Source: Corallococcus sp. NCRR (GTDB lineage: Bacteria; Myxococcota; Myxococcia; Myxococcales; Myxococcaceae). From it: a DNA stretch of 64,000 nt. The notes below the pieces were generated by a model. It worked only from the letters and a program-made list of their open reading frames with translations. It did no database searches and was not told where the DNA came from. Each line of letters opens with the position of its first letter. Positions within the stretch are counted from its first letter, which is position 1. The DNA lies in NCBI RefSeq assembly GCF_026965535.1, contig NZ_CP114039.1, positions 6,882,001 through 6,946,000 of the forward strand, read 5' to 3'. Of this stretch, positions 5,001-63,703 are shown one piece after another. The position numbers and the translations under genes were made by a program.

Positions 5001-8000
5001 GCCAACGCGATTCGCGCCGCGAGTACGTCGCGCCGCGCACGCGGCGGGAACAGGTGCTGGCGCAGGTGTTGGCGCAGGTGCTGCGCGTGGATCGCGTGGG
5101 CCTGGACGACAACTTCTTCGCGCTGGGCGGCGACTCCATCATCAGCCTCCAGGTGGTGGCCCGGGCGCGGCAGGCCGGGGTGCGGTTGCAGGTGAAGGAC
5201 CTCTTCCAGCACCCCACCCTGGGCGCGCTGGCGGCGGTGGCGCGTGACGGTGAGGCGACCCTCGCCGAGCAGGGACCGGTGGTGGGCGACGTGCCCCTCA
5301 CGCCCATCCAGGTGGACCTGTTCGAGCGCGAGCCGACGTACCCGCACCACTTCAACCACGCCCTGCTGCTCAAGACCCGTCAGCCGCTGAAGGCCGACCT
5401 GTTGCAGCGGGCGCTCCAGGCGCTGGTCACGCACCACGACGCCCTGCGCCTGCGCTACGTCCACGCCGATGACGGCACGTGGCGCCAGGAGGACGTGGCG
5501 CCCGTGGAAGCGCCTCCCGAGCTCGCCCAGGTGGACCTGTCCATGCTGCCTCCGGAGGCACGGATCACCGCGATGGAGCGGGAGGCCGCGCGCCTCCAGG
5601 CGGACTTCGATCTGGCGACCCCGCCGCTGGTGCGCGTGGCGCTGTTCCACTTCGGTGCCGGTGAGCCGCAGCGCCTGCTGCTCATCATCCACCACCTGGT
5701 GGTGGACGCGGTGTCGTGGCGCATCCTGGTGGAGGACCTGGAGACGGCGTACCTCCAGCTCCAGTCCGCGCGCGCGCCGGTGCTGCCCGCGAAGACGACG
5801 TCGTTCCGCTCCTGGGCGCAGCGGCTCCAGCAGCACGCCCTGTCCGACGAGCTGGGAGCGCAGGAAGCCTTCTGGCAGGAAGCGCTGCGCGGAGACGTGG
5901 CCCCGCTGCCGGTGGATGGCCCGGGCCCGTACACGTACGCGTCACGAAGCAGCGTCGCGGTGGAGCTGGACGCGGAGGAGACGCGGCAGTTGCTCCAGGA
6001 GACCCCCACCGGTTGGCGGGCGCGCATCGACGACGTGCTGTTGACCGCGCTCGGGCGGACGCTGGGCGAATGGACGGGGATGCCGGACGTCCTCATCGAC
6101 CTGGAGGGCCACGGCCGCGAGGAGCTGTTCGCGGACGTAGACGTGTCGCGCACGGTGGGCTGGTTCACGTCCGTGGCGCCGGCCCTGCTGCGGCTGCCCA
6201 AGGGCGGCTCGCCAGGTGACGGGTTGCGCGCCGTGAGAGACTCGCTGAAGGCGTGGCCCGGCCGCGGCATCGGCTTCAACCTGCTGCGGCACCTGGGGCC
6301 TCCGGAGACGAGGGCCCGGCTGGCCGCGCTGCCCCGGGCGCAGGTGGCGTTCAACTACCTGGGCCAGCTCGATGGCACCGCCGCCGCCAGCACGCTCTTT
6401 ACGATGAGCGACGAGCCGGTGGGGCCCATCGTGGAGCCCCGGGCCGTGCAGCCGCACGCGCTGGCGGTGGACGGCTCGGTGTTCCAGGGCCGGCTGCGGA
6501 TGACGTTCGGCTACAGCCACCAGCAGCACCACGAGGCGACGGTGCGCGCGCTGGCGGAGCGCTTCCTCTCCGTGCTGCGCGAGCTCATCGCCCAGCGCCA
6601 TTCGGAGGACGCGCGGCGGCGCACGCCCGGCGACTTCCCACTGGCCCGCTTGTCCCAGGCCGCGCTGGACGCGGTGCTCGCGGCGCAGGGCCCCACGGTG
6701 GAGGACCTGTTCCCGCTGTCCCCGCTCCAGGAGGGCATGCTCTTCCACGCCCTGAATACGCCGGAGGCGGCCTACTACTTCGAGCAGGCTGCCTGGTCGA
6801 GCCACTCGGACGTGGACATCGCGCTGTTCCAGCGGACGTGGCAGACGGCCGTGGAGCGCAACCCCATGCTGCGCACCGCGTTCGTGTGGGAGGGACTGGA
6901 GTCGCCGCTCCAGGTGGTGCACTCGCACGCCACGCTGCCGTTCATCGTCCATGACTGGCGCCACCTGCCGGAGGCGGAGCAGCCGGCCGCGCTGGCGAAG
7001 CTCACGTCGGAGGACCGCGCACGCGGCTTCGACGTGTCGCGAGCGCCGCTGTCGCGGATGACGGTGGTGCGCCTGGGTGAAGCGCGCTGGCGCTTCCTCT
7101 GGAGCCACCACCACCTGCTGATGGACGGCTGGAGCATGGGCCTGTTCTTCCAGGAGGTCTTCGCCCTCTACGACGCCGTGCACGCCGGGACGACGCCACC
7201 GCCCGCGGGCCGGCCTCCGTTCCGCGACTACATCGCGTGGTTGGACCGCCGCGACGCTGGGGAGGACGAGCGCTTCTGGAGTGAGCAGCTCGCGGGCCTG
7301 ACGGCGCCCACGCCCCTGCCCTCGGCGCGGCCGGCGTCCCTGGTGCGGCCCACCACGTCCGAGAAGCGGCCCGACGTGAGGGTGACGCTGCCGGCGCCGG
7401 TCACCACCGCGCTGGAGTCCTTCGCGCGGCGGCATCAGCTCACGCTCAACACGCTGACGCAGGCGGCCTGGGCGCTGGTGCTGGCGCGCCATGCGGACAC
7501 GCGTGACGTGATCTTCGGCACCACGCTTTCGGGCCGTCCGCCAGAGCTGCCGGGCGCGGACGCCATGTTGGGTCTGCTCATCACCACGCAGCCGGTACGA
7601 ATCACGCTGCCCGCTGAAGGTGAGCCGGTGCTGCCGTGGCTCCAGTCGCTCCAGACGAAGCTGCTGGGCATCCAGCAGCACCAGTACGCGCCGCTGGTCT
7701 CGACGCATGGCTGGAGCGACATCCCCCGGGGACAGCCGCTGTTCCAGTCGCTGTTCGTCTTCGAGAACTACCCGTTCGACGCGTCGGTGTTGCGTCGCTT
7801 CACCGCGATGGACCTGCGCGACCTGGAGTTTGGCGACAGCACGAACTACCCGCTGTCCGCCACGGTGGTGCCGCGCGAGGAGCTCCAGCTGAACCTGGCC
7901 TACGACGAAGGCCGCTTCGACGCGGACGCCGTGCGGCGGGTGCTGGGCCAGTGGCGGCAGGCGCTGGAGGGACTGCTCCCGCCGGACGCCCGGATCGAGG

Positions 8001-11000
8001 ACGTCTCGCTGCTGTCCGCCGGAGACCGTGACTGGCTGCTGCGCACCGGGACCGGCGGCGCCATGGACTTCGAGCGCGAATCCACCCTGCACGCGCGTTT
8101 CGAACGGCAGGCCGCCGAGACGCCGGACGCGGACGCCGTGGTGTCCGACGGGACGACGCTGTCCTTCCGGGAGCTCAACACGCGGGCCAACCGGCTCGCG
8201 TGGCACCTGCGGTCGCTGGGCGTGGGCCCCGAGGTGACGGTGGCGCTCTGCCTGGACCGGTCGGTGGAGACCGTCGTCGCGATGCTGGCGGTGCTCAAGG
8301 CCGGCGGCGCCTACGTGCCCCTGGACCCGGCCGCGCCAGCAGCGCGCAAGTCGTTCGTCCTCAAGGATTGTGGCGCGAGCGTGCTGGTGACCACTCGGGC
8401 TCTGCAAGAGACGTGGCACCCAGAGGTGCCCCACCTGGTGCGGCTGGACGAAAAACCTGTCGGACAGTCGGACAGGTTCACGGACGCCGAGCGGTCCTCG
8501 GGGCCCACCGAACCTGTCGGACAGTCGGACAGGTTCGCGGAGACCGAGCCGGGAGCCGGGGACGCCAAACCTGTCGGACAGTCGGACAGGTTCGTGGCGA
8601 CCGAGCCGGTCCTGAGCGACGCAGCGCCTGTCGGACAGTCGGACAGGTTCTGGGAGACCGCCCTGGCGGCCGGGACCACCGAACTGGTCGGACAGTCGGA
8701 CAGGTTTTCGGAGAACCCGCCGCCGGTGGCGGGTCCGACGAACCTGGCCTACGTCATCTACACGTCGGGCTCCACGGGCACGCCCAAGGGCGTGATGGTG
8801 CGGCACCGCTCGGTGGCGCATCTGCGGCAGGCGATGAACGCGGCGTGCTTCACCCAAGCGTCCGGACCGCTGCGGGTCGCCCTCAACGCGCCGTACTCCT
8901 TCGACGTGTCGGTGGGACAGCTGGCGCTCATGCTGGAGGGCCACACGCTGTGCGTTGTTCCGGAGGCCGTGCGGCAGGATCCGGAGGCGATGCTCAAGTG
9001 GCTGGAGCAGCAGCGGGTGGACGTCCTGGACTGCACGCCGTCGCAGTTCAAGTTGCTGCTAGAGGCCGGCTTCCTGGAGCAGCGGCACGTGCCCGCGTAC
9101 GTCCTCCTCGCAGGCGAGGCCGTGGACGAGGTGACGTGGCGCACGCTCGCGGAGACGCGGCGCACGCAGGCGTTCAACCTCTACGGCCCGACGGAGGCGA
9201 CGGTGTACGCGACCTGGGAGCGCATCTCAGGCTCGGCACGCGCCACGCCCGTCATCGGTCGGCCGCTGGCCAACCTGAACGCGTATGTGCTGGACGCGCA
9301 CCATCGCTGGGTGCCCGTGGGCACGCCGGGGGAGCTGTGCCTCTCCGGTGAAGGCGTCACGCGCGGCTACCTGGGCCGGCCGGACCTGACGGCCGAACGC
9401 TTCGTGCCGGATCCGTTCAGCACGGAGCCCGGTGCGCGCCTCTACCGCACGGGCGACAAGGCCCGCTGGCGCGAGGACGGCACGCTCGAATACCTGGGCC
9501 GGTTGGACTTCCAGGTGAAGCTGCGCGGCTACCGCATCGAACTGGGCGAAATCGAATCCGCGCTGCGGACCCACCCGGACATCCGGGACGCGGTGGTGCT
9601 GGTGCGCGAGGACCGGCTCATCGCCTGGGTCGCGCCCCAGGTGGACACCGCGCCCCTGCGTCAGCACCTCCGGCGGACCCTGCCGGAGTACATGGTGCCC
9701 GCCACGTTCGTGGCGCTGGATGCCCTGCCCCAGACTGCCAACGGCAAGGTGGATCGCAACGCCCTGCCCTCGCCCGAGGCCGCCCCGGCCTCCGAGCGCG
9801 TCATCGAACCGCCCTCGACGCCCACGGAGGTGACGCTGGCCGCGCTGTGGAGCGAAGTGCTTCGCGTCCCGGCAGTGGGCCGTCATGACGGCTTCTTCGA
9901 ATTGGGAGGCCACTCGCTGCTGGCCACGCAGCTGGTGTCGCGAGTGCGTGCTCGCTTCGGCATGGAGCTGCCCCTGCGGGCCCTGCTGGAGGGCCCTACC
10001 GTGGCGGAGCTGGCGCGCCGGATCGACGCGCTCCACCAGCCGCAATCGCATGAGGCGTCCGCGCTGCCCTCGCTGGTCCGCGCGGAGCGGCCGGACGTGC
10101 TGCCGCTCTCGTTCGCGCAGCAGCGCATGTGGTTCGCGGAGCAACTGGGCACCGCGGGCACCGCCTACAGCCTCCCGAACCTGCTGGACCTGGATGGCTC
10201 GCTGGACGTCATCGTCCTGCTGGCCGCGTTCGACGAACTGGTGCGCCGCCACGAAGCGCTGCGCACCACGTTCCAGTCGCGGGAAGGCACGCCGTCGCAG
10301 GTCATCCACCCGCCGTTCCCCATGTCCCTGCGGCACGCGGACCTCTCCGCGCTCCCGACGCAGGAGGCTCGGGAGGCGGAGGTATCGCGGCTGGCCCGGG
10401 AGGAGTCCTCCACTCCGTTCGACCTGGAGCAGGGCCCGCTGTTCCGAGGCCTCCTGATGAAGCTGGGCCCCACGAAGCACGTGCTGCTGCTCAACACGCA
10501 CCACATCATCATGGATGGCTGGTCCACCGGCGTGCTGGTCCGGGAGATGGGCGCGCTCTACGCGGCGTTCGCGGCGGAGCAGCCGTCGCCGTTGCCCGCG
10601 CTGACTGTGCAGTTCGCGGACCATGCCCTCTGGCAGCGCGCCTGGTTCCAGGGCGAGGTGCTTGCGTCGCAGGTGGCGTACTGGCGCGCGCAGCTGGAAG
10701 GCGCCGCGCCCTACCTGGAGCTGCCCACGGACCACCCGCGTCCGGCCGGTCAGGGGGCCTATCGCGCCAGCTCCCAGCCGCTCGTGCTTTCGCGCGAGCT
10801 GAGCGAAGCGGTGGAGGCCTACGCACGGCAGGCGTCCGCCACGCCGTTCATGGTGCTGCTCTCGGCCTTCCAGCTCTTGCTGCACCGGTACTCCGGACAG
10901 GAGGACGTGCTCGTGGGGGCGCCCATCGCGGGCCGTCGTCACGCCGAGTCGGAGTCGCTGATCGGCTACTTCGCGAACACGGTCGTGCTGCGCACCCGGG

Positions 11001-17000: not shown

Positions 17001-20000
17001 TGGACGCGCAGCTCGCGTGGTGGACGCAGCAACTGGCCGGGGCCCCGCAGGCGCTGGCCCTGCCCACCGACAAGCCGCGTCCGCCGCAGCGTTCCGCGAG
17101 GGGCGCGACGTTCCCGGTACGCCTGTCGCAGCCGTTGAGCGAGGCGGTGGAAGCCCTGGCCCAGGCGGAGGGCGCCACGCCCTTCATGGTGCTGCTCACA
17201 GCCTTCCAAACGCTGCTGCACCGGTACTCCGGGCAGGAGGACCTGCTCGTGGGCACGTCCATCGCGGGCCGACGTCACGCGGAGACGGAGGGCCTCATCG
17301 GCTTCTTCGTCAACACGCTGGTGCTGCGCGCGCGGTTCGACGGCCGCCCGTCGTTCCGGACGCTGCTCGCGCAGGTGCGCGCCACCACGCTGGGCGCGTA
17401 CGAACACCAGGACATCCCCTTCGAGCGTCTGGTGGAGGCCGTGCAGCCCGCGCGCGACCTGTCGCGCACGCCGCTCATCCAGGCCCTCTTCGGGCTCCAG
17501 AACGTGCCGGACGCGGAGGTGCGCCTGCCGGAGCTGACGCTGCGTCCGGTAGAGGTGGACCTGCACTCGACGAAGTTCGACCTGGACCTGAGCATGGCCC
17601 GCACGGAGCGGGGCTTCGAGGGCGCCCTCTCCTACGCCACGGACCTCTTCGAACCCGCCACGGCCCGTAGGCTCTCCGAGCACTTCGTCCAGTTGCTGGA
17701 GGGTGCCATCACCCGGCCGGACGCGAAGGTGGACAGCTTGCCCCTGCTGACGGCGGAGGAGCGCCAGTGGGTGCTGGAGGAGTGGAGCGGCGAGACGGCT
17801 GCCTTCGAGGCCGACGTGCCCTTCCACGCGCGCTTCGAGCAGCAGGTCACGCGCACGCCCAAGGCGCCCGCCGTGGTGATGGGCGACACGACGGTGTCCT
17901 TCCACCAGCTCAACGTGCGCGCGAATCAGTTGGCGCATCACCTGCGCTCACTGGGCGTGGGCCCGGATGTGCCGGTGGCCTTCTGCCTGGAGCGCTCGCC
18001 GGAGGCCATCGTCGCCCTCCTGGGCATCCTCAAGGCGGGCGGCGCGTACGTGCCGCTCGACCCCGCAGCCCCTGAGGCGCGCAAGGCCTTCATCCTGGAG
18101 AACAGCGGCGCGGCCGTGCTGCTCACCACCCAGGCTCAGGTGGAGTCCTGGCAGCCGCCAGCGCGGCACGTGGTGCGGCTGGACGCGGACGCGCGGCGCA
18201 TCGAGTCGTCCTCGCCAGGCAACCCGCGCTCTGGCGTGCGGCCGGAGCACCTGGCCTACGTCATCTACACGTCGGGCTCCACGGGCATGCCCAAGGGCGT
18301 GATGATTCAGCACCGCTCGCTGGCGCACCTGCGGCGCGCGATGAACGAAACCTGCTTCGAGCGGGCGTCGTCCCGGCCGCTGCGCGTCAGCGTCAACGCG
18401 CCGTACTTCTTCGACGCGTCGGTGCAGCAACTGTCCCTGCTGCTGGACGGGCACTGCCTGTGCCTCGTCCCGGAGGCCGTGCGGCGCGACCCGGAGGCGA
18501 TGCTCGCGTGGGTGGAGCAGCACCGCATCGACGTGTTGGACACCACGCCGTCGCAATACCAGCTGCTCCTGGGGGCGGGCCTGCTGGAACGCGAGCACGT
18601 GCCGAGCCTCTGCTCCATCGGCGGTGAGGCGATGGACGAGGTGACGTGGCGCACGCTCGCGGCGACGGAGCGGACCTGGGCCTTCAACGCCTACGGGCCC
18701 ACTGAATGCACCGTGAACGCCACCATCGCCCCCATCCAGGGCAGCCCCATGCCCACGCCCGTCATCGGGCGCCCGCTGCTGAACCTGGGCGCGTACGTCC
18801 TGGATGCGAACCTGAACCCTGTGTCCGTGGGCGTCCCGGGCGAGCTGTTCATCTCGGGCGAGGGCCTGGCGCGCGGCTACCGCCACCGCCCGGACCTCAC
18901 CGCGGAGCGCTTCATCCCCCACCCCTTCAGCACGGAGCCCGGAGCGCGGATGTACCGCACGGGAGACCGGGTCCGGTGGATGCAGGATGGCACCCTGGAG
19001 TACCTGGGCCGGTTGGACTTCCAGGTGAAGCTGCGCGGCTACCGCATCGAGCTGGGAGAGATTGAAGCCGCGCTGCGTGCGTCTCCGGGCGTGCGCGACG
19101 CGACGGTGGTGCTGCGCGAGGACGTTCCCGGGCTCCCGCGACTGGTGGCCTATGTGACGCCGGAGGTGGACACCGCTCCGCTCCGAAGCCACCTCCAGCG
19201 CTCGCTGCCGGAGTACATGGTGCCCGCGGCCTATGTCGCCCTGCCCGTCCTGCCGCTGACGCCCAACGGCAAGGTGGACCGCAAGGCGCTGCCCGTCCCC
19301 GTGGACGGACCCATGAGCACCGAGACCCACGTGGGCCCCAGGAACGAAGCCGAGGCGCGGATCGCGGCGCTCTGGGCGGAGGCGCTGGGCGTGTCCAACG
19401 TGGACGTGCGCGCCAGCTTCTTTGAACTGGGCGGGCACTCGCTGCTGGCGGTGCGGCTGATGGCGGCGGTGCACCGGGAGACGGGCCGCAAGCTCCCGCT
19501 GTCGGCCCTCTTCCAGGCCCCCAGTGTGGAGCGGTTCGCGGTCCTGCTGGGAGAGGCCGAGCCGAAGCCCTTCACGCCGCTGGTGCCCTTCACGACCGAA
19601 GGCACCGGCACGCCGTTCTTCTGCGTGCACCCGGTGGGCGGCAACGTGCTGGCCTACGCGGAGCTCGCGCGGAAACTGGGAACGGCTCAGCCCTTCTACG
19701 GCATCCAGGCCCGAGGCCTCGACGGTACGGATCAGCCGCTGGACACCGTGGAAGCCCTGGCCGCCAGCTACGTGAGGGCGGTGCGAGGTGTCCAACCCCA
19801 CGGCCCGTACCGCCTGGGCGGTTGGTCCCTGGGCGGCGTCATCGCCTACGAGATGGCGTACCAGCTCCGCGAAGCAGGCGAAGCCGTGGAGCTGGTGGCG
19901 ATGATCGACTCGTATGTGCCCGAGACGGTGCCGGACTCGGAGCCGGACCTGGACCGCACGCTGGCGGTGGGCATGTTCGCGCAGGACCTGATGGGCGTGT

Positions 20001-20386
20001 CGCTGGCGGACCTGGATGTGGACACGGCGGAGCTGGCGACGCTTGCGCCTGAAGCGTCGCTCGCGAGGGTGCTGGAGTCCGCGGCCCGGTCCGGCGCGCT
20101 CCCGCCCGGAGTGGACGCCACCGCCCTCTTCCAGGTGTTCGAGGCGAACCTCGAAGCGGCCCGGCGCTACCACCCGCCCGCGATAGAGCAGCGCGTGCTG
20201 CGCATCCAGGCGGAGGAGCTCGCCGATGACACGGGCACGGGTGACGGAGGCTGGACGGCGCTCGTGGGAGACCGGTTGGAGTCGCACCGCCTGCCGGGCA
20301 CCCACTACACGCTGCTGCGCGAGCCGGGGGTCCAGTCGGTGGCGGAGTTGCTGACGAAGGCGCTCCGCGACGCGGACAAGGAGTAG
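2..20386 (+). CDS. Giant NRPS, 3' part (5' end outside window): [degenerate A with MOX]-C-A-T-E-(C-A-T)x4-TE
   Basis: Multimodular non-ribosomal peptide synthetase. The frame is open from base 2, and the first residues align with the middle of a degenerate A domain in the paralogue at 37580, so the true start lies upstream and the GTG at 32 is not a real start. Domain order: remnant A with a luciferase-like monooxygenase inside it (to about 2013), C-A-T-E (2105-6640), C-A-T (6690-10040), C-A-T (10075-13225), C-A-T (13255-16395), C-A-T (16435-19560) and a type I TE (19561-20386). Five A domains look active, with intact TSGSTG and YGPTE motifs and YRTGD-type motifs (YDTGD in the third). Carrier domains have GGDS or GGHS serines. 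It is paralogous to 37580-58069 throughout. The TAG at 20384 is followed by a strong hairpin. Expected to be a cytoplasmic megasynthetase that finishes and releases a peptide started upstream. The product is not identifiable from sequence. Confidence 0.95.
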   Translation: MGPSDLSHLPVYAPEGAPVPVLVTTRALVASVRVDAARVVYVEDVPAATEATAVDVEPQALAWLLPTGRGQPAWALGHRELAEFFTGLDTRLSPPDGGAWLAASEPSSDRPDLEALWALTRGLRVVFPPERITARLVSLGDGGPRAKAMDLSLIYFANDEDTLTGPKYELLLEGAKFADANGFSAVWTPERHFHSFGGLYPQPAVVAAGLATVTKHLRLRSGSVVLPLHDPLLIAEQWSVVDNLSQGRVGLSVATGWHTQDFTFAPANYEKRRDILLEKLSTLRALWRGERFKRPAGAGSTAEVGLRPKPVQKELPVWLTATGNPETFRMAGELGAGVLTGLLSHSLEELKQKVALYRDAWRRNGHPGRGHITCMLHTYLGDDEQEVLRTVRQPLLGYFRSSVDISTSLLQAQGITDVQKLSPDDINAVLERTFENHAKNTGLLGTVDSAMRRLRDVRAADVDEVAALIDFGLDTPVVLDGLRRLAVVRERMDAEAAARQEQVLVEAEAGVEGLLELARQSGAVLLHTSARLARSLSELPGARESLSRVGALVLEGASVELGAALHRAAGVEVWLSGDAQEGALLPRTLAERIPANLQAWVLDAAGQPVPAGVVGELALAGAGLPTALWRAGDEEHRRLVPHPREASAKLFRTGRHARMRGDGRLEPVASPSRLPPPPVARPAVVEAPRPVAPAAPAVVNLGPPPIPRVSRDQPLPLSFAQQRLWYLQQLEPTSSAYNNPAIFRLTGELDRDALQTALDMMVVRHEVLRTTYSLEGDHAVQVIHPPRGLPLQHWDAPGDTPEAREAAMHRFCQEAIRQPFDLEKDVVRGALLRLGDREHVLFVTFHHAVSDAWCTMVIAHELTVNYTAFRAGQPSPLPELPVQYADYAVWQRAWLEGGVMEKQVAWWKDHLTGAPPLELPTDRPRPAVMSYAGARYTFLLPSEVSAPMLALGRKHGATTFMVLMALFQTVLSRYSGQEDFVVGTPIAGRTRPELEMLMGCFINTLPFRSRLSGMPSFVELLGRVRTQALEAFAHQDAPFERVLDAMQLPRDLSRTPLFQASINLVNTPEGKARPAGLELTQVEVPTGTSKFDLGMEVVENRAGFSCSLEYATALFDASTMERLAGHMVTLAREVVAHPKTPVALLPLMDETERQRVLRSWNDTFQDIPRDAVLPDLFARQVALRPDAVAVEFGDAHLTYAQLDARSNQWAHLLRGRGVGPDVLVAVCLERSLELIVSLLAILKAGGAYVPLDPSYPAPRLAAMLEDAPAKWVLTTRSMRGTVPLPQGVESVFVEELGATDLPTAPVVSGVRSRHLAYVDFTSGSTGRPKGVAVEHRAVMRLLHHPAFVDMSAGETFLHVAPISFDPATLEIWGPLLNGGRLVVFPPTSPSDLEVLAQVIQRHGVTSMMLTAGLFTQVVDLKPEALRGVRRLISGGDVIPPAQSRKVLEAHPGLTFLACYGPTEATVIASVHEMSDPAHVEPPVPLGRPITCTELYVLDAHGQPVPPGVPGELFIGGEGLARGYISRPDLTAERFVPHPFASRPGERLYRTGDLARWRPDGVLDFLGRTDHQVKVRGFRVELAEVEAALSAHPDVREAVAVVREDAPGDKRLVAYVVPASVPEPEVLREFMRQRVPDYMLPTVFVPLDALPLTAQDKVDRKALPAPKGQRDSRREYVAPRTRREQVLAQVLAQVLRVDRVGLDDNFFALGGDSIISLQVVARARQAGVRLQVKDLFQHPTLGALAAVARDGEATLAEQGPVVGDVPLTPIQVDLFEREPTYPHHFNHALLLKTRQPLKADLLQRALQALVTHHDALRLRYVHADDGTWRQEDVAPVEAPPELAQVDLSMLPPEARITAMEREAARLQADFDLATPPLVRVALFHFGAGEPQRLLLIIHHLVVDAVSWRILVEDLETAYLQLQSARAPVLPAKTTSFRSWAQRLQQHALSDELGAQEAFWQEALRGDVAPLPVDGPGPYTYASRSSVAVELDAEETRQLLQETPTGWRARIDDVLLTALGRTLGEWTGMPDVLIDLEGHGREELFADVDVSRTVGWFTSVAPALLRLPKGGSPGDGLRAVRDSLKAWPGRGIGFNLLRHLGPPETRARLAALPRAQVAFNYLGQLDGTAAASTLFTMSDEPVGPIVEPRAVQPHALAVDGSVFQGRLRMTFGYSHQQHHEATVRALAERFLSVLRELIAQRHSEDARRRTPGDFPLARLSQAALDAVLAAQGPTVEDLFPLSPLQEGMLFHALNTPEAAYYFEQAAWSSHSDVDIALFQRTWQTAVERNPMLRTAFVWEGLESPLQVVHSHATLPFIVHDWRHLPEAEQPAALAKLTSEDRARGFDVSRAPLSRMTVVRLGEARWRFLWSHHHLLMDGWSMGLFFQEVFALYDAVHAGTTPPPAGRPPFRDYIAWLDRRDAGEDERFWSEQLAGLTAPTPLPSARPASLVRPTTSEKRPDVRVTLPAPVTTALESFARRHQLTLNTLTQAAWALVLARHADTRDVIFGTTLSGRPPELPGADAMLGLLITTQPVRITLPAEGEPVLPWLQSLQTKLLGIQQHQYAPLVSTHGWSDIPRGQPLFQSLFVFENYPFDASVLRRFTAMDLRDLEFGDSTNYPLSATVVPREELQLNLAYDEGRFDADAVRRVLGQWRQALEGLLPPDARIEDVSLLSAGDRDWLLRTGTGGAMDFERESTLHARFERQAAETPDADAVVSDGTTLSFRELNTRANRLAWHLRSLGVGPEVTVALCLDRSVETVVAMLAVLKAGGAYVPLDPAAPAARKSFVLKDCGASVLVTTRALQETWHPEVPHLVRLDEKPVGQSDRFTDAERSSGPTEPVGQSDRFAETEPGAGDAKPVGQSDRFVATEPVLSDAAPVGQSDRFWETALAAGTTELVGQSDRFSENPPPVAGPTNLAYVIYTSGSTGTPKGVMVRHRSVAHLRQAMNAACFTQASGPLRVALNAPYSFDVSVGQLALMLEGHTLCVVPEAVRQDPEAMLKWLEQQRVDVLDCTPSQFKLLLEAGFLEQRHVPAYVLLAGEAVDEVTWRTLAETRRTQAFNLYGPTEATVYATWERISGSARATPVIGRPLANLNAYVLDAHHRWVPVGTPGELCLSGEGVTRGYLGRPDLTAERFVPDPFSTEPGARLYRTGDKARWREDGTLEYLGRLDFQVKLRGYRIELGEIESALRTHPDIRDAVVLVREDRLIAWVAPQVDTAPLRQHLRRTLPEYMVPATFVALDALPQTANGKVDRNALPSPEAAPASERVIEPPSTPTEVTLAALWSEVLRVPAVGRHDGFFELGGHSLLATQLVSRVRARFGMELPLRALLEGPTVAELARRIDALHQPQSHEASALPSLVRAERPDVLPLSFAQQRMWFAEQLGTAGTAYSLPNLLDLDGSLDVIVLLAAFDELVRRHEALRTTFQSREGTPSQVIHPPFPMSLRHADLSALPTQEAREAEVSRLAREESSTPFDLEQGPLFRGLLMKLGPTKHVLLLNTHHIIMDGWSTGVLVREMGALYAAFAAEQPSPLPALTVQFADHALWQRAWFQGEVLASQVAYWRAQLEGAAPYLELPTDHPRPAGQGAYRASSQPLVLSRELSEAVEAYARQASATPFMVLLSAFQLLLHRYSGQEDVLVGAPIAGRRHAESESLIGYFANTVVLRTRVRGTPRFRELLEQVRATTLGAYEHQDLPFEKLVEALQPERDLGRTPLFQVTFTLQNAPMPELSLPGLTLKGREDLKASTVFDLQCVLSRGPDGFEGVLGFNQDLFDADTVAGMVEHLRVLLESALRSPDMRLPELPWLTGAERQRLLSDWSGTSRDFPRDASVATLFTEQAARTPDATALKAGERRMSYAALDRASNQLAHHLRRQGVRPGHRVGLCLERSFESITALLGILKAGAAYVPVDPQAPAERIAWVLREAGVSLLVTVEAVADELPAMTDLQVLLDADAAVIARQSEAALDVAVSSQALAYVMFTSGSTGRPKGVSVPHRGITRLVRGADFIHFGPEEVFLHLAPLAFDASTLEVWGALLNGATLVVAPAGALSLGDTGALLRREGITTLWLTAALFDQMVLHQGEALARVKQVLAGGDVLPVERVREHLKRLPPGAVLVNGYGPTENTTFSATHTLRAGDTVGRSVPIGRPLSNSTAWVLDAALQPVPPGVPGTLYVGGDGLAWGYLQRPDLTAERFIPHPFATEPGARLYDTGDRVRWQRDGTLEFLGRTDFQVKLRGFRVELGEIEAVLRLSPEVEEAVVVVREDVPGDKRLVAYVVSGEGLDTGALRVSVQKQLPEYMVPSAIVVLPKLPLSANGKVDRKALPAPKARVADPASATPRSALEKTLAGIWAEVLHLETVDIHGDFFELGGHSLLATQVVARIRSTLGLELPLGELFRAPTVASLAERLVDARRTQAPPLVPVSRASAPPLSFAQQRLWFIDQLEPGSPLYNMPLALSLTGDLDVDALRGSLDALMARHESLRTTFRMEAGKPVQDIHPEGHVPMERVDLTVLGNRAARQAEAQRLGHAETLKPFDLKRGPVIRALLMKLEEREHVLVLHLHHIVSDGWSLGVLVRELTALYEALRAGRSAALPELPVQYADYAVWQRGWLQGGVLQAQVEWWKQQLSGAPFVLDMPTDRPRTVGADRRGGRIRVTLPRALSERVDALAQAEGTTPFMALLAAFQAVLSRASGQDDVLVGSPIANRRQAETEGLIGFFVNMLVLRGRFGARTTFRELLAQIRATTLGAYEHQDIPFEHLVEALQPERDLGRTPLFQAMFALQNAPLPELAVPGLTVAPAHLEGDAPSQFELALNLSRSAEGYEGHLGFAADLFDTATIERLFAQLRRLLEAVCDAPDLPLADVSLVSPEELVRLVRVGSGERVDFERDATLHGLIERQVARTPDAPAVVFEESSLTYRQLDTRANQLAWRLRSLGVGPEVKVALCLERSVEAIVALLAVLKAGGAFVPLDPSAPAARRDFVLKDSGASVLVTTEAACGDWSPYGVHEVWLDVEQTGLGALSHEPLPALTGPEHLAYVLYTSGSTGRPKGVMVQHRTLLNMHRAFNRAFYAGQPRGQRVSVNAPLYFDAVMDRVVQLIDGHCLHIVPDALRVDPEAMLTWLEQHRIDSFDCTPAQLKPLLAAGMLGRAWVPPLVMMGGDALDVESWRKLAATDRTRVFNGYGPTECTVGTAGVTIQGSSRTEPFIGRPMANLNAYVLDARQRLVPIGMPGELCFSGESVTRGYLGRPDLTAERFVPDPFSADPGARLYRTGDRGRWRPDGTLEFMGRLDFQVKLRGYRIELGEIEATLRTHAGVNDAVALVREDVPGDARLVAYVVTDGDTEGLREHLRRHLPEYMVPSAFVALPALPLTPNGKLDRRALPSPEARLRAARSYEAPATPAEVALASLWEELLNVPVVGRNDHFFELGGHSILATQLVSRIRARFGVDVGVRALFESPTVAALAQRLPDAPEANALQPLRPAATPGPHPLSFAQQRLWFIDQLEPGSALYNMPTALRLTGTVDVPALQQAFDALVDRHEALRTTFESRDGEPSQRVHPAPTGVLSVVDLSNLPGGEREAEAARLASEDALTPFDLATGPLVRLTLLKLGEAEHVLLLCMHHAIGDGWSMSILVREVTALYEAFRQGQPSPLAPLPVQYPDFAVWQRGWLQGEVLDAQLAWWTQQLAGAPQALALPTDKPRPPQRSARGATFPVRLSQPLSEAVEALAQAEGATPFMVLLTAFQTLLHRYSGQEDLLVGTSIAGRRHAETEGLIGFFVNTLVLRARFDGRPSFRTLLAQVRATTLGAYEHQDIPFERLVEAVQPARDLSRTPLIQALFGLQNVPDAEVRLPELTLRPVEVDLHSTKFDLDLSMARTERGFEGALSYATDLFEPATARRLSEHFVQLLEGAITRPDAKVDSLPLLTAEERQWVLEEWSGETAAFEADVPFHARFEQQVTRTPKAPAVVMGDTTVSFHQLNVRANQLAHHLRSLGVGPDVPVAFCLERSPEAIVALLGILKAGGAYVPLDPAAPEARKAFILENSGAAVLLTTQAQVESWQPPARHVVRLDADARRIESSSPGNPRSGVRPEHLAYVIYTSGSTGMPKGVMIQHRSLAHLRRAMNETCFERASSRPLRVSVNAPYFFDASVQQLSLLLDGHCLCLVPEAVRRDPEAMLAWVEQHRIDVLDTTPSQYQLLLGAGLLEREHVPSLCSIGGEAMDEVTWRTLAATERTWAFNAYGPTECTVNATIAPIQGSPMPTPVIGRPLLNLGAYVLDANLNPVSVGVPGELFISGEGLARGYRHRPDLTAERFIPHPFSTEPGARMYRTGDRVRWMQDGTLEYLGRLDFQVKLRGYRIELGEIEAALRASPGVRDATVVLREDVPGLPRLVAYVTPEVDTAPLRSHLQRSLPEYMVPAAYVALPVLPLTPNGKVDRKALPVPVDGPMSTETHVGPRNEAEARIAALWAEALGVSNVDVRASFFELGGHSLLAVRLMAAVHRETGRKLPLSALFQAPSVERFAVLLGEAEPKPFTPLVPFTTEGTGTPFFCVHPVGGNVLAYAELARKLGTAQPFYGIQARGLDGTDQPLDTVEALAASYVRAVRGVQPHGPYRLGGWSLGGVIAYEMAYQLREAGEAVELVAMIDSYVPETVPDSEPDLDRTLAVGMFAQDLMGVSLADLDVDTAELATLAPEASLARVLESAARSGALPPGVDATALFQVFEANLEAARRYHPPAIEQRVLRIQAEELADDTGTGDGGWTALVGDRLESHRLPGTHYTLLREPGVQSVAELLTKALRDADKE
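2105..6640 (+). other. Module 1 of first line: C-A-T-E
   Basis: The C domain begins at PLPLSFAQQRLWYLQ, with active site HHAVSDAWC near 2537. The A domain (about 3480-5000) has FTSGSTGRPKG and ACYGPTE. Pocket residues by eye are D-P-L-M-I-G-C-V-I, which I cannot assign. The carrier has LGGDSI with the phosphopantetheine serine at 5135-5137; the GGDS form is typical of carriers that feed epimerases. The E domain (about 5273-6620) has HHLVVDAVSWRIL and FNYLGQLDG. The residue added here should therefore be presented in D-configuration. The paralogous module at 40060-44590 has pocket D-P-L-L-V-G-C-L-L, so specificity may have shifted slightly. Confidence 0.88.
6690..10040 (+). other. Module 2 of first line: C(DCL)-A-T with repeat-expanded A domain
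   Basis: The C domain starts EDLFPLSPLQEGMLFHAL and has HHHLLMDGWS. This is the form that follows an E domain and takes a D-aminoacyl donor. The A domain (about 8063-9780) carries five 57-bp in-frame repeats between core motifs A2 and A3 (8454-8706). After them it has YTSGSTGTPKG and NLYGPTEATVY. The pocket by eye is D-V-G-D-L-A-L-V-Y. This differs completely from the positional paralogue at 46010-47490 (D-A-E-D-S-G-G-V-D) and nearly equals that of module 8 of the second line (D-V-A-D-L-A-L-V-Y). The carrier has LGGHSLLATQ near 9900. The substrate is not assigned. Confidence 0.88.
8454..8706 (+). repeat. Five in-frame repeats, exact 57-bp period, each with a 25-bp near-palindrome
   Basis: Copies start at 8454, 8511, 8568, 8625 and 8682, exactly 57 bp (19 codons) apart. 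Each 25-bp element reads AACCT, then GTCGGACA twice, then GGTT, and is a near-palindrome (arms AACCTGTC and GACAGGTT). Copies 1-3 are identical; copies 4 and 5 differ only in the first six bases. The encoded peptide is (E/K)PVGQSDRF followed by about 11 variable residues. The position is a loop between A2 and A3 of the module-2 A domain. The paralogue has a single copy at 46395-46419. Confidence 0.95.
10075..13225 (+). other. Module 3 of first line: C-A-T, valine-like pocket
   Basis: The C domain has HHIIMDGWS, the LCL-like form. The A domain (about 11465-12980) has FTSGSTGRPKG and NGYGPTENTTF. The pocket by eye is D-A-L-W-A-G-G-T-F, close to the DAxWxGGTFK family associated with valine or similar aliphatic residues. 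Valine is therefore a tentative call. The carrier has LGGHSLLATQ near 13095. The corresponding module at 47800-50945 has an identical pocket, and a 221-bp stretch of the A domain (12647-12867 versus 50363-50583) is identical at the nucleotide level. Confidence 0.85.
13255..16395 (+). other. Module 4 of first line: C-A-T
   Basis: The C domain begins APPLSFAQQRLWFIDQLEP and has HHIVSDGWS. The A domain (about 14636-16130) has YTSGSTGRPKG and NGYGPTECTVG. The pocket by eye is D-A-D-D-M-G-G-V-G, which I cannot assign. The carrier has LGGHSILATQ. The paralogue at 50985-54110 differs from this pocket only at the last position (C for G). Confidence 0.85.
16435..19560 (+). other. Module 5 of first line: C-A-T, Gln/Glu-like pocket
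   Basis: The C domain has HHAIGDGWS. The A domain (about 17810-19300) has YTSGSTGMPKG and NAYGPTECTVN. The pocket by eye is D-A-Q-D-S-G-A-V-N, reminiscent of the DAQDLGVVDK glutamine code; Gln or Glu is a weak guess. The carrier has LGGHSLLAVRL, with the serine just after 19430. The positional paralogue at 54150-57265 has the same flanks but a different pocket core (D-V-A-D-L-A-L-V-Y). Confidence 0.85.
19561..20386 (+). other. Terminal type I thioesterase of first line
   Basis: An alpha/beta-hydrolase TE is fused to the last carrier. The nucleophile motif GWSLGG has its serine codon at 19826-19828. The likely catalytic histidine is in LPGTHYTLLREP near the C-terminus. It should release the chain by hydrolysis or macrocyclisation; which one cannot be read from sequence. 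Nucleotide identity to 57270-58069 is very high around the active site. The segment between the nucleophile and the C-terminus differs by small indels. Confidence 0.9.
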
Positions 20387-44500: not shown

Positions 44501-47500
44501 CAGCGCTTCCTCTCCGTGCTGCGGGAGCTCATCGCACAGCGCCACTCGGAGGACGCGCGCCGGAGGACGCCGAGCGACTTCCCCCTGGCGCACCTCTCCC
44601 AGGCCGCGCTGGACGCGGTGCTGGCTGCGCAGGGCCCCACGGTGGAGGACCTGTTCCCGCTGTCTCCGCTCCAGGAGGGCATGCTCTTCCACGCCCTGGA
44701 GGACCCGCACGCGGGCTTCTACGTGGAGCACACCGCGTGGACGTTCCACTCGGACGTGGACGTCGCGCTGCTCCAGCGGACGTGGCAGACGGCGGTGGAC
44801 CGCAACCCCATCCTGCGCACCGCGTTCGTGTGGAAGGGACTGGAGACGCCGCTGCAGGCGGTGCACTCGCACGCGGCGCTGCCGTTCGAAGTGCATGACT
44901 GGCGCCACCTGCCGGACGCGGAGCAGCAGGCCGCCCTGGAGCGGCTGATGGCCGAGGACCGCTCGCGCGGCTTCGACGTGTCCCGGGCCCCGCTGTCGCG
45001 CATGACGGTGGTGCGGCTGTCGGACGCGCGCTGGCGCTGCGTGTGGAGCCACCACCACCTGCTGTTCGACGGCTGGAGCCTGGGGCTGTTCTTCCAGGAG
45101 GTCTTCGCCCTCTACGACGCCCTTCGCGCCGGAACGCCGCTGCCCGCCGCGGGCCGGCCCCCCTTCCGCGACTACATCGCGTGGCTGGGACAGCGTGACG
45201 CCGCCGGGGACGAGCGCTTCTGGCGCGGCCAACTGTCCGGCCTGTCGTCGCCCACGCCCCTGCCCGCGGTGCGTCCTCTGGCCGCGCAGCCCTCGGGCGT
45301 GGTGGAGCAGCCCGACCTGGCGATCGCGGTTCCGGAGGCCCGGACCCAGGCGCTCGACGCCTTCGCGAAGCAGCACCAGCTCACGCTCAACACGCTGACG
45401 CAGGCGGCCTGGGCGCTGGTGCTGGCGCGCCATGCGGACACGCGCGACGTCCTCTTCGGCACCACGCTGGCCGGCCGTCCGCCGGAGCTGGCGGGTTCGG
45501 AGTCCATGCTGGGCCTGCTCATCGCCACGCTGCCGGTCCGCGTCACGCTCCCTGACGAGGACTCGCCCGTGCTGCCGTGGCTCCAGTCCCTCCAGGCGAA
45601 GCTCCTGGGCATCCAGCAGCACCAGCACACGCCGCTGGTCGCCGCGCACGGGTGGAGTGACATCCCCCGGGGACAGCCGCTCTTCCAGTCACTGCTCATC
45701 TTCGAGAACTACCCCTTCGACGAATCCCTGCTGCGCCGCTCCACCGCGCTGGACCTGCGCGACTTGGTGATGGGCGAGAGCACGAACTACCCGCTGGCGG
45801 CCTCGGTGTTGCCGGGCCGCGAGCTCCAGTTGCACCTCACCTACGACGCGAACCGCTTCGACGAGGATGCCGTCCGCCGGGTGCTGGGCCAGTGGAGGCA
45901 GGCGCTGGAGGAGCTGGCCCGGCCCCAAGCCCGGCTGGCCGACGTGTCCCTCGTGTCGGCCGAAGACCGCGCGTGGCTGTTGCGCGCCGGGCTCGGTGAT
46001 GTCGTGGACTTCGAGCGCGACTCCACGGTGCACGGCCGCTTCGAACGGCAGGCCGAGGAGACGCCGGACGCGGACGCAGTGGTCTTCGGGGAAACGACGC
46101 TGTCCTTCCGTCAGCTCAACGCGAAGGCCAACGCGCTCGCCTGGCACCTGCGGTCGCTGGGCGTGGGCCCGGAGGTCCCGGTGGCCCTGTGCCTGGAGCG
46201 ATCGGCGGAGGTCATCGTCGCGCTGCTCGCGGTGCTCAAGGCCGGAGGCGCCTTCGTGCCGCTGGACCCCAGGGCTCCGGCCGCGCGCAAGTCGTTCGTC
46301 ATCGAGGACAGCGGCGCGACCGTGCTGATCACGACGCAGGCGCTGCAAGAAGCGTGGCACTCGGAGGTGCCCCACCGGGTGCTGCTGGACGCAGAACCTG
46401 TCGGACAGTCGGACAGGTTTTCGGAGAACCCGCCCCGGGCGGCGGGTCCGGCGAACCTCGCCTACGTCATCTACACGTCGGGCTCCACGGGCGCGCCGAA
46501 GGGCGTGATGGTGCAGCACCGCTCGGTGCTCCATCTGCACAAGTCGATGACGTTGAGCATCTACGAGGACCTGCCGCCGGCTCAGCGCATCACCGTGAAC
46601 GCGCCGCTGTACTTCGACGCGTCCATCGAACAGGTGATCCAGCTGCTGTCCGGCCACTGCCTCTACATCGTCCCGGAGGACGTGCGCCTGGAGCCGGAGG
46701 TCCTGCTCGAGTGGCTGGAGCGTCAGAGTATCGACGTGTTCGACAGCACGCCGTCACAGCTCAAGCTCCTGCTGTCCGCCGGGCTGCTGGAGCGCGCCCA
46801 CGTCCCCAAGCACTTCTCCATCGGAGGCGAGGCGATGGACGAGGTGACCTGGCGGCAGCTTGCCGCGGCGAAGCGCGGTCGTGGCTACAACGGCTATGGC
46901 CCCACGGAGGTCACCGTGGACGCGACGGTCAGCGTCGTCCAGGGCGCGCCCCAGCAGGTGCCCGTCATCGGCCGGCCCATCGCCAACCTGCGGGCCTACG
47001 TGCTCGACACGGACGGGCGCCTGGCACCCGTCGGAACGCCGGGCGAGCTGTGCCTCGCGGGTGAAGGCCTCGCGCGAGGCTACCTGGGCCTGCCCGCCCT
47101 GACGGCCGAGCGCTTCATGCCGGATCCGTTCAGCCCGGAGCCCGGCGCGCGCCTCTACCGCACGGGCGACAAGGCCCGCTGGCGGGAGGATGGCACGCTC
47201 GACTTCATGGGCCGCCTGGACTTCCAGGTGAAGTTGCGCGGCAATCGCATCGAGCTGGGCGAAATCGAAGCCACGCTGCGAGCGCACCCGGGCATCCGGG
47301 ACGCGGTGGTGCAGGTCCACGACGACCGGCTCATCGCGTACATCGCGCCCCAGGTGGACACGTCGCCCCTGCGCGAACACGTGCGTCAGCACCTGCCGGA
47401 GTACATGGTGCCCGCCGCGTTCATCCCGCTGGACGCCCTGCCCCTCACGCCCAACGGCAAGGTGGACCGCAAGGCGCTGCCCGCACCGGAGGCCGCCCCC

Positions 47501-53500: not shown

Positions 53501-56500
53501 TACCGCACGGGAGACCGGGGCCGTTGGAAGCCGGACGGCACGTTGGAGTTCATGGGCCGCCTGGACTTCCAGGTGAAGCTGCGCGGCTACCGCATCGAAC
53601 TGGGCGAAATTGAAGCCACGCTGCGCACGCACGCGGGCGTCAATGACGCGGTGGCCCTGGTGCGCGAGGACGTGCCAGGCGATGCGCGGCTCGTGGCCTA
53701 CGTGGTGACGGAGGGCGACACGGAGGGACTGCGCGAGCACCTGCGCCGGCACCTGCCGGAGTACATGGTGCCGTCCGCGTTCGTCGCCCTGCCCGCCCTG
53801 CCGCTGACGCCCAACGGGAAGCTGGACCGCAAGGCGCTGCCGTCACCGGAAGCGCAGCGGCGCGCGTCGCGCTCGTACGAAGCTCCGGCGACACCCGCGG
53901 AGGTGGCCCTGGCCTCGCTGTGGGAGGAACTGCTGAACGTGCCCGTCGTGGGCCGCAACGACCACTTCTTCGAACTGGGCGGCCACTCGCTGCTGGCCAC
54001 GCAACTGGTCTCCCGAATCCGCGCCCGCTTCGGCGTGGACGTGGGCGTCCGGGCGCTGTTCGAGTCGCCCACCGTGGCGGGGCTCGCCCAGCGGCTGCCG
54101 GATGCACCGGAGGCCAGCGCCCTCCCGGCGCTGCGGCCCGCGGCGCCCCCCGGTCCTCATCCGCTATCGTTCGCGCAGCAGCGGCTGTGGTTCATCGACC
54201 AGTTGGAGCCGGGCAGCGCGCTCTACAACATGCCCACGGCGCTGCGCCTCACAGGCACGGTGGACGTGCCCGCGCTCCAGCAGGCCTTCGACGCGCTGGT
54301 GGAACGCCACGAAGCGCTGCGCACCACCTTCGAGTCCCACGACGGTGAACCCCGCCAGCACGTGCACCCCGCCCCCACCGGAGTCCTGTCGGTGGTGGAC
54401 CTGACGGGCCTGCCGGATGACCTGCGGGAAGCGGAGGCCATCCGGCTCGCGAGCGAGGACGCACTGACGCCCTTCGACCTCGCCACGGGGCCGCTGGTGC
54501 GGCTCACGCTGCTGAAGCTGGGCGAAGCGGAGCACGTGCTGCTGTTGTGCATGCACCACGCCATTGGAGACGGCTGGTCCATGAGCATCCTGGTGCGTGA
54601 AGTCACCGCGCTCTACGAGGCATTCCGGCAGGGCCAGCCCTCGCCGCTGGCTCCGTTGCCGGTGCAGTACCCGGACTTCGCCGTGTGGCAGCGATGCTGG
54701 CTCCAGGGCGAAGTGCTGGACGCGCAGCTCGCGTGGTGGACGCAGCAGTTGGCCGGAGCCCCTCAGGCCCTGGCGCTGCCTACTGACAAGCCGCGTCCGC
54801 CCCAGCGCTCCGCGAGGGGCGCCACCTTCCCGGTGCGACTGTCGCAGCCGTTGAGCGAGGCGGTGGAGGCACTGGCCCAGGCGGAGGGTGCCACGCCCTT
54901 CATGGTGCTGCTCGCGGCCTTCCAGACGCTGCTGCACCGGTACTCCGGCCAGGAGGACCTGCTCGTGGGCACCTCCATCGCGGGCCGGCGTCACGCGGAG
55001 ACGGAGGGCCTCATTGGCTTCTTCGTCAACACGCTGGTGCTGCGCGCGCGGTTCGATGGACGCCCGTCGTTCCGGACGCTGCTCGCGCAGGTGCGCGCCA
55101 CCACGCTGGGCGCGTACGAGCACCAGGACATCCCCTTCGAGCGCCTGGTGGAGGCCGTGCAGCCCGCGCGCGACCTGTCGCGCACGCCGCTCATCCAGGC
55201 CCTCTTCGCGCTCCAGAACATGCCGGACGCGGAGGTGCGCCTGCCGGAGTTGACGCTGCGTCCAGTGGAGGTGGACCTGCCCACGACGAAGTTCGACCTG
55301 GACCTCGCGCTGTCCCGCACGGAGCAGGGCTTCGAGGGGACCCTCTCCTACGCCACGGACCTCTTCGAGCCCGCCACGGCCCGTAGGCTGTCCGAGCACC
55401 TGGTCCAACTGCTGGAGGGCGCGGTCGCGAAGCCCGACGCCGCGCTCGACACCCTGCCCCTGCTGACGGCCGAGGAGCGCCAGTGGGTACTGGAGGAGTG
55501 GAGTGGCGAAACAGCCCGCTTCGACGCCGACCTGCTCTTCCACGCACGCTTCGAACAGCAGGTGGCGCGCACGCCCAAGGCTCCCGCCGTGGTGATGGGC
55601 GACACGACGGTGTCCTTCCACCAGCTCAACGTGCGCGCGAACCAGCTGGCGCACTACCTGCGCTCGCTGGGCGTGGGCCCGGAGGCGCCGGTGGCCTTCT
55701 GCCTGGAGCGCTCGCCGGAGGCCATCGTCGCCCTCCTGGGCATCCTCAAGGCGGGCGGCGCGTACGTGCCGCTCGACCCCGCGGCCCCTGAAGCGCGACG
55801 GGCCTTCATCCTGGAGAACAGCGGCGCGGCCGTGCTGCTGACCATGCAGGATCAGGTGGAGTCGTGGCAGCCGGCGGTGCGGCACGTGGTGCGACTGGAC
55901 GCGGACGCGCGGCGCATCGAAGCGTCCTCGCCGGGCAACCCGCGTTCGGGCGTGCGGCCGGAGCATCTGGCCTACGTCATCTACACGTCGGGCTCCACGG
56001 GCATGCCCAAGGGCGTGATGGTCCAGCACCGCTCGCTTTCGCACCTGCGGCACGCGATGTCCGAGGCGTGCTTCAGCAAAGTGCCTCCGGGCATGCGGGT
56101 GGCCCTCAACGCGCCGTACTACTTCGACGTGTCGGTGGCGCAGTGGGTGCTGATGGGAGACGGCCACTGCCTGTGCCTCGTCCCGGAAGCCGTTCGGCAG
56201 GATCCAGAGGCGATGCTCGCGTGGCTGGAGCAGCGGAGGGTAGACGTCCTGGACTGCACGCCGTCGCAGTTCAAGCTGCTGCTGGAGGCGGGGCTCCTGG
56301 AGCAGGGGCATGTGCCCGCGCACATCCTCCTCGCCGGAGAGGCGGTGGACGAGGTGACGTGGCGCACGCTCGCGGAGGCGCGGCGCACGCGGGCGTTCAA
56401 CCTCTACGGCCCGACGGAAACGACGGTGTATGCGACCTGGGAGCGCATCTCCGGCACGGCGCACCCCACGCCCATCATCGGGAGGCCCCTGGTGAACATG

Positions 56501-58108: not shown

Positions 58109-58138
58109 TCCGTGAACCGCGTCACCGCTGGACCGCGG

Positions 58139-58933: not shown

Positions 58934-58975
58934 GCGTCGTTCCGTCCAATCACTTCCCGAAGGGCCGCTCGGCAA

Positions 58976-59239
58976 CCACCCGGGCCGGCCCGTCCATCAC
59001 CCAGCCATCAACCGGGTGAGGCAGTTGAAAACTCCGGCCGCCCAGCTTCCCACCTCAAGCGCCCGCGCCACATCACGAAAGCCGCCGCCCGTCTGTCTAC
59101 CCACACCCACGGTGTGCGACATCCCGAGAGCCTGGAGAGGCTCCAGGCGAGCACAGTAACCACCTCCGGTGCGGGTGGCAGGACCGTTCGCCGTTCTGGC
59201 CTCCCGGCAGGAGCCCGGGGCCACCTGTCCGACAGTCGT
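58976..59239. other. Intergenic region between DedA gene and cNMP-binding gene
   Basis: About 260 bases (longer if DedA starts at 58933) without a gene. It should hold the DedA promoter. Visible structure: an inverted repeat CACACC-CAC-GGTGTG at 59100-59114, and a copy of the NRPS near-palindrome at 59222-59246. I see no convincing promoter boxes or RNA gene. Confidence 0.5.
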
Positions 59240-59710: not shown

Positions 59711-59742
59711 GGGGTGTTCCTAACACGCACAGCGCGGCCGCG

Positions 59743-60258: not shown

Positions 60259-60294
60259 GGTGGCACCTCCGACGGCGGGACAGCGGCGGAGGCG

Positions 60295-63697: not shown

Positions 63698-63703
63698 GGC
63701 GCG

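Follow-up and report, generated by a model that had tools for sequence, protein, structure and literature searches.

The presence, in one stretch of a Corallococcus genome, of two parallel NRPS lines whose modules at one position carry entirely different pockets raises the question of how one of these A domains came by its core. The window, by which we mean the whole 64,000-nucleotide stretch that was analysed (Corallococcus sp. NCRR, NZ_CP114039.1, positions 6,882,001 to 6,946,000), is part of a single-contig genome of 9.79 Mb and holds the two lines in tandem, each closed by a thioesterase (Table 1). Modules 2 and 5 of line 1 are called L1M2 and L1M5, modules 5 and 8 of line 2 are called L2M5 and L2M8, and other modules are named likewise. 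An epimerisation-type domain (TIGR01720) is present in both L1M1 and L2M4, so that the five modules L1M1-L1M5 run parallel to L2M4-L2M8. A PDB search confirmed an NRPS A domain and gave nothing further. Line 1 also contains a luciferase-like monooxygenase domain (TIGR04020, window 452-1465), and downstream of line 2 (window 58112-64000) there are three long, slightly overlapping plus-strand ORFs that had no Pfam match up to E 0.01.

Table 1. Features of the two NRPS lines, in window coordinates
Feature	Position	Strand	Basis
Epimerisation-type domain (TIGR01720), end of line-1 module 1, upstream of L1M2	6218..6673	+	
Native position-2 type condensation domain of L1M2, after the epimerisation-type domain, not exchanged	6686..8000 (ends approximate)	+	windows 66-96% DNA to L2M5, 41-58% to L2M8
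Five near-palindrome copies, 57 bp apart, A2-A3 linker of L1M2	8459..8704	+	
Transplanted Acore segment of L1M2	outer 8743..9269, inner about 8817-9246	+	two-breakpoint likelihood, six triples
A3 P-loop of L1M2 (TSGSTGTPKG), inside the 5' breakpoint range	8762..8791	+	
Pocket-bearing stretch of L1M2, A4 (SFDVSVG) to A5 (NLYGPTEATVY), code DVGDLALVY	8897..9208	+	
G-motif PVIGRP of L1M2, holding or touching the 3' breakpoint	9248..9265	+	motif described in PMC10212144 (available text)
Native 3' flank of L1M2 (A6-A10 and T domain), position-2 type	9329..10051	+	identity comparisons
L1M5 A domain, A3 to about the G-motif; position-native core, DAQDSGAVN	18269..18772	+	core and flank trees agree; end inferred from L1M2 spacing
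Line-1 terminal thioesterase	19613..20359	+	PF00975
Single near-palindrome copy, L2M5 linker	46400..46417	+	
L2M5 A domain, A3 to about the G-motif; native position-2 core, DAEDSGGVD	46475..46978	+	end inferred from L1M2 spacing
L2M8 core, DVADLALVY, donor family of last-module cores	56043..56488	+	identity, trees, motif positions
Line-2 terminal thioesterase	57335..58042	+	PF00975

To read the pocket letters anew, we aligned 104 A-type domains bearing the A3 motif, taken from stretches of the strain's own genome. We obtained DVGDLALVY for L1M2, DAEDSGGVD for L2M5, DAQDSGAVN for L1M5 and DVADLALVY for L2M8, identical to the codes read in the first-pass annotation of this DNA. That annotation had also claimed that L1M2 resembles L2M5 in its flanks and L2M8 in its core, and that the flanks of L2M8 match L1M5. 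The DNA identities of N flank, core and C flank bore out all three points, being 83.0, 66.1 and 85.8% for L1M2-L2M5, 73.0, 84.6 and 78.6% for L1M2-L2M8, and 93.4, 73.2 and 85.8% for L1M5-L2M8, and a sliding, codon-aligned comparison of the kind it had proposed revealed a sharp switch inside L1M2. Its coordinates for the L2M8 core (56027-56475) had to be corrected by about 13-16 bases: with A3 at 8762 and 55985 and IGRP at 9254 and 56477 as anchors, the counterpart of 8820-9265 is 56043-56488.

Outside the core, L1M2 is of position-2 type, that is L2M5-like, in the C domain, A1-A2, A6-A10 and the T domain. These retained parts are 66-96% (C domain, in windows), 85.8% (A6-A10) and 73-87% (T domain) identical to L2M5, against 41-58%, 78.6% and 54-62% to L2M8. 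At the protein level the C domains track the flanks and not the cores (74% for L1M2-L2M5, 95% for L1M5-L2M8), which speaks against a joint transfer of C and A domains. In each of the remaining positional pairs, the two modules match each other best within the genome set, whether N flank, core or C flank is compared (83.5, 74.9 and 85.5% for L1M1/L2M4, 79.9, 92.9 and 97.4% for L1M3/L2M6, and 83.6, 96.4 and 95.2% for L1M4/L2M7). In modules 3-4 of line 1 (A3 at 11933 and 15104) compared with modules 6-7 of line 2 (A3 at 49649 and 52820), core and C flank reach 93-97% versus 80-84% in the N flank, as would be expected if the two lines had later undergone conversion. Over the 5356 pairs formed by the 104 domains, core identity had a mean of 48%, a 95th percentile of 67% and a 99th percentile of 90%, so that the L1M2/L2M8 value lies far above chance. 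When pairs were ranked by core identity minus that of the better flank, L1M2/L2M8 came 19th of 5356, behind pairs that mostly share a pocket code; what is special here is thus the change of code between positions and not the mosaic itself.

The ends of the foreign segment were placed by two-breakpoint likelihood on informative sites, run on 15 triples, the breakpoint range being taken from the six with a position-2 DVGDLALVY child and either G007b_4484 or L2M5 as flank parent. These gave log-likelihood gains of 114.9-182.1 and run statistics of 92-114 against permutation maxima of 10-14, with the 5' breakpoint at 8743-8817 and the 3' breakpoint at 9246-9269. Breakpoints had been suggested just after the A3 P-loop and near A5/A6, and we indeed find them at or just after A3 and at the G-motif; both are inside the Acore and flank the pocket (A2-A4 and A5-A6). 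Because every one of the 15 triples, even a weak one such as L1M5 with L2M8/L2M5 (run 8 versus 6), reached the lowest permutation p possible in the run test (1 in 2001), we relied on the size of the statistic alone. Two triples with G009b_2001 as flank parent gave a 3' end at 10029-10051, and one of them a 5' end at 8152-8156; both fall outside the quoted range because the 3' part of G009b_2001 itself differs. Three triples with L2M8 as child had 3' ends at 9275-9619, and with L1M5 and L2M5 as children the gains were 64.6 and 46.0.

Core homologues (E at most 1e-40) were found in 19 of 79 genomes, namely our own, all 15 others of the genus in this set and three of the same family; a search with the L1M2 core gave 11 loci, of which seven are in Corallococcus (six species), one in a Myxococcaceae MAG and three are weak matches in unrelated MAGs. 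From the relatives we used 77 A domains in 20 stretches, with position assigned via the C domain where the contig holds enough of it. The first-pass annotation had named the comparison of core and flank trees as the test of recombination, and the two trees (75 and 74 rows, respectively) conflict. In the core tree, L1M2, G004a_9315 and G009b_6570 group together (96/87) inside a 24-row family of last-position cores (100/99), which consists of these three position-2 DVGDLALVY rows, 20 rows treated as last-position (in three, G010a, G010b and G006, the C domain could not be read) and a single row from C. terminator. The neighbours of the three, L2M8, G007a_15793 and G013_15424, are each last-position. 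In the flank tree, the same three rows stand among 12 position-2 domains (100/99). In AU tests, whose p-values are optimistic for groups beyond the annotation's own pairs because these were chosen partly after the trees were built, a clade of the five DVxDLALVY domains was rejected by the flanks (p 9.5e-9) and one of the 12 position-2 domains by the core (p 2.6e-4), and the core data also rejected separation of the 20 last-position rows from the position-2 recipients. Both rejections persisted with 15 extra rows (G032, G038, G008 and G012; seven further stretches/genomes; p 4.4e-5 for flanks and 8.7e-5 for core), and L1M2 kept its neighbours in both trees.

The relatives also reveal which code is native. 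Position 2 reads DAEDSGGVD in seven line-2 type rows (L2M5, G007a, G009a, G013, G001, G011 and G003) and DAEDSGGVD, DAEDSGGVN or DAEDSGAVN in more distant lines (G002, G012 and G008, with C domains 65-67% similar). At position 2 of line 1 it is either DAADSGEV, as in the unswapped homologue of G007b (DAADSGEVD) and in one G009b module, or DVGDLALVY, as in L1M2, G004a and the next G009b module. Last positions have DAQDSGAV, DATDFG/DAADFG, DASDIGIVF, DVxDLALVY and DIGDL/DVGDLAAVY types. Since the L1M2 core is nested in the last-position family and its flanks lie among the position-2 rows, the core went one way, from the last-module core family into line-1 position 2. The claim of an A-subdomain recombination that altered the pocket is thus upheld by the conflict between core and flanks together with the change from DAADSGEV/DAEDSGGVD to DVGDLALVY.

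We therefore regard it as very probable that L1M2 is a natural, one-way replacement of an Acore subdomain, in which a last-module DVxDLALVY core was laid over a position-2 core by homologous recombination, most simply once in a shared ancestor. In such an event, a tract of some 430-530 bp from an A domain of the DVxDLALVY family, located in a last module, would have been copied over the native DAADSGEV/DAEDSGGVD-type core of a position-2 module by gene conversion or double crossover, each end falling in a conserved stretch (the region of the A3 P-loop on one side and the G-motif on the other). The module's own C domain, the N part of its A domain, Asub and the T domain would have stayed in place. 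The recombination presumably took place inside one cell, in an ancestor shared with at least two Corallococcus-type genomes (G004 and G009).

The DVGDLALVY core at line-1 position 2 is common to three lines, those of our own genome, G004 and G009. The flanks do not separate L1M2, G004a, G009b_6570 and the unswapped G007b from one another (p 0.505 for the three swapped rows as one clade), which makes a single event compatible with the data but not proven. In G009 (10.08 Mb; L065, G009:C1:5264001-5284000), the code order is DPLMIGCVI, DAADSGEVN, DVGDLALVY and a Val-type code. Thus, G009b, a line-1 relative one module longer, holds unswapped and swapped position-2 modules in tandem. This tandem opens the possibility, which we hold only tentatively, that L1M2 is a fusion formed after loss of one of two such modules, with the C domain of the unswapped and the A domain of the swapped copy; the core would then have been replaced at an earlier time. 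The C domain of L1M2 is indeed 96% identical at the protein level to that of the unswapped copy versus 84% to that of the swapped one, and its core is 78-94% identical to that of the swapped copy in DNA windows. However, the tandem occurs in one genome only, the C domain of the swapped copy may itself be part-replaced (72% to L1M2 in the comparison window at 7271), and a fusion would supplement the core transfer and not substitute for it.

We also considered L2M8 as a recombinant of a DATDFGAVA module and a DVxDLALVY donor. In a triple with G009a and G007a the gain was 23.0 and the run 44 versus 25, and the core rejected L2M8 with five DATDFGAVA rows (p 4.7e-4), but the flanks do not demand such an origin: they do not reject L2M8 with G007a and G013 (AU p 0.44), and L2M8 may thus merely retain an old core, with no swap required.

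That L1M2 and L2M8 of this strain recently underwent gene conversion with each other inside the genome appears very unlikely to us. Both lines lie in one window, the C flank of L1M3/L2M6 and the core of L1M4/L2M7 look homogenised, and L1M2 and L2M8 alone as a core clade were not rejected (AU p 0.11). Yet the two cores are only 84.6% identical, each is nearer to G004a (88% for L1M2 and 87% for L2M8, the best match in either case), and L1M2 groups with the position-2 cores of two other genomes; at third positions, the L1M2 core is 80% identical to L2M8 versus 78% to the last module of G007a. The swap is not recent, since three line-1 lines share it, the L1M2 and L2M8 cores are about 85% alike, and G009 holds unswapped and swapped modules side by side. 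The best match of the L1M2 core, G004a, is itself a recipient and no donor was found among the sequences compared, so that a donor in the same cell and one in another strain are indistinguishable.

The first-pass annotation had worded the event as an exchange between the two paralogues, and this part of its claim did not hold. A reciprocal exchange of cores between L1M2 and L2M8 could be read from their common core type and from the similar codes of L1M5 and L2M5, but we give it hardly any credence. The L2M5 core is native, belonging to a clade of seven native position-2 domains in both the core (96/91) and the flank (100/98) tree, and the L1M5 core is a member of the last-position family, where six DAQDSGAV domains including L1M5 form a clade in both trees (100/100 core, 100/99 flanks), and is only 70.8% identical to the L2M5 core. 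The L2M8 flanks, as described above, are compatible with G007a and G013.

The conflict between core and flanks is not confined to selected residues. The core rejected grouping by position after removal of the nine pocket codons (p 3.5e-64) and also when only third codon positions outside the pocket codons were used (p 1.0e-3), and in the third-position core tree the five DVxDLALVY rows form a clade (100/85). Fourfold sites agree between L1M2 and L2M8 in 80% of cases in the core (48/60) versus 56-61% outside it (C flank 45/75), and between L1M2 and L2M5 in 56% in the core (22/39) versus 69-80% outside (C flank 59/74). Convergence, or selection on the pocket without DNA transfer, can thus be dismissed with near certainty, even though last-module cores show several pockets on flanks 81-94% identical, and pockets there can hence change with no evident outside donor: the discordance persists at third positions, at fourfold sites and in the tree lacking the pocket codons, which means recombination and not convergence.

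A 25-bp near-palindrome, AACCTGTCGGACAGTCGGACAGGTT, lies close to the swapped segment. It had 122 forward and 124 reverse matches in the genome with up to 3 mismatches, where one site may count on both strands, while the reversed control had 0; many of the matches listed form arrays with a spacing of about 57-75 bp. In some NRPS A2-A3 linkers it is read in frame as VGQSDRF, five times in L1M2. L1M2 and L2M5 had been described as sharing a near-palindrome insert; the element is present in both, but L1M2 has its five copies in a 99-aa linker and L2M5 a single one in an ordinary linker of 23 aa. The last L1M2 copy (8687-8704) ends some 40-110 bp short of the 5' breakpoint. As a cause of the swap the element is not supported, as the linker of the swapped G009b_6570 has no copy, that of G004a has a changed copy and the C. 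terminator swap has none, and copy-bearing modules (L2M5, G007a_6292, G013_5893, G009a_5671 and D6373279) are unswapped.

A second donation of a last-module core is seen in C. terminator (G012a_9593). A module of position-2 type precedes it; of the modules in the window, L2M7 has the C domain most similar to its own (72%), and the flanks closest to its own are those of internal DAEDIGVVN-type modules (86%). Its core, DVGDVAAVY, falls in the last-position DVGDLAAVY group (100/99; 99/96 with the 15 extra rows), and the flanks reject it with the DVGDLAAVY last-position modules (p 2.5e-4). Two triples with this module as child had 5' ends at 8755-8866 and 3' ends at 9478-9499, the second being weak (run 102 versus a permutation maximum of 82); in L1M2 numbering the tract thus seems longer on its 3' side, to about 9478-9499, although the flank parents used are not the closest. 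Last-position A domains, such as those at 18269-18772 and 55985-56488, have cores only 73-84% identical between pocket types, with C domains and A flanks at 81-94%, which points to fast core change in place. It is conceivable, though we consider it rather unlikely, that the last module before the thioesterase is a recurrent source of specificity cassettes, with at least five pocket types on flanks 81-94% identical and one-way copying at least twice, into line-1 position 2 and into the internal DAEDIGVVN-type module of C. terminator.

Other units have moved as well. At line-2 position 3 of G009, the A domain differs throughout (Ser-type code; N flank 64, core 52 and C flank 66%) behind a C domain that is 91% identical, and at line-2 position 4 of G009 and G013, the A domain is 82-95% identical to a cluster-D module at 6379705, with C domains at 72-75%. 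These whole or partial A-domain replacements indicate that units of several sizes move in this NRPS family. L2M3 (A3 at 28017) is a further mosaic of a different unit, with a core 90%, C flank 84%, N flank 70% and C domain 60% identical to those of a module of another cluster (genome position 6393322). A plasmid database search gave 23 matching records, none covering 80% of the query, with short matches among those listed.

Judged by its code, L1M2 most likely activates the same residue as the last-module DVxDLALVY domains, and the line-1 peptide, if the enzyme works as we suppose, would be altered at this position with the rest of the line kept. A search of the literature for six pocket-code strings retrieved no paper with any of them, and no substrate for the codes was found in PMC12283262. 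The locus offers a natural before-and-after experiment, in which an orthologous position is native in one species, bears a foreign core in others and occurs in both states in tandem in one. Swapped and unswapped cores sit behind closely related C domains of post-epimerisation type, and the C domains of modules with donor cores are of quite another kind (41-58% DNA identity in windows), a contrast relevant to the question of whether the acceptor residue is gated by C domains. For engineering, the A3 region and the G-motif represent cut points tested by evolution.

No prior account of the L1M2 case or of A-core recombination in Corallococcus was found, judging by title and abstract start, among the papers listed from literature under searchable licences, but Acore subdomain swaps as such are already known in other bacteria. 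In the available text of Baunach et al. 2021 (PMC8097286), recombination affects part of the Acore with varied ends, the C domain, C-A linker, Asub and T domain are kept, and units of several sizes from one or several clusters are mixed. L1M2 is like these cases in the replacement of an Acore part behind a kept C domain, with Asub and T domain retained. Unlike in that study, the available text of which does not contain 'myxobacteri', direction is here derived from relatives, and swapped and unswapped modules coexist in one relative. Calcott et al. 2020 (PMC7486941) describe, in the portion available, natural hotspots at A2-A4 and from close to A5 onwards in C-A-T modules of Pseudomonas, Bacillus and Streptomyces, with which both ends of the L1M2 segment are in keeping; those are statistical hotspots across sets, whereas an L1M2-type swap, known from sequence, is kept in three lines.

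As regards engineering, the record in the available texts is mixed: Calcott et al. report partial A swaps as generally unsuccessful or inefficient, with no visible product from their own partial A-domain constructs, whereas Baunach et al. see great potential in them. The engineered A-subdomain swaps of Crusemann 2013 and Kries 2015, as described in the available parts of PMC7486941 and PMC10212144, use an A3-A6 exchange unit, that of Kries starting in the middle of A3-A4 and ending exactly at the G-motif. L1M2 resembles them in this unit and in its 3' end at the G-motif; it is, however, natural, and its 5' end is nearer to A3 than the start of the Kries unit. A 2017 study of myxobacteria, as cited in the available text of PMC10212144, found A-domain exchange behind a kept C domain, which is like the line-2 replacements seen here at positions 3 and 4, where the A domain was exchanged largely or completely. 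The L1M2 event differs from it in lying within the A domain and not at its start. Thus, to the Acore subdomain swaps known from other bacteria (PMC8097286 and PMC7486941), L1M2 adds a well polarised case.
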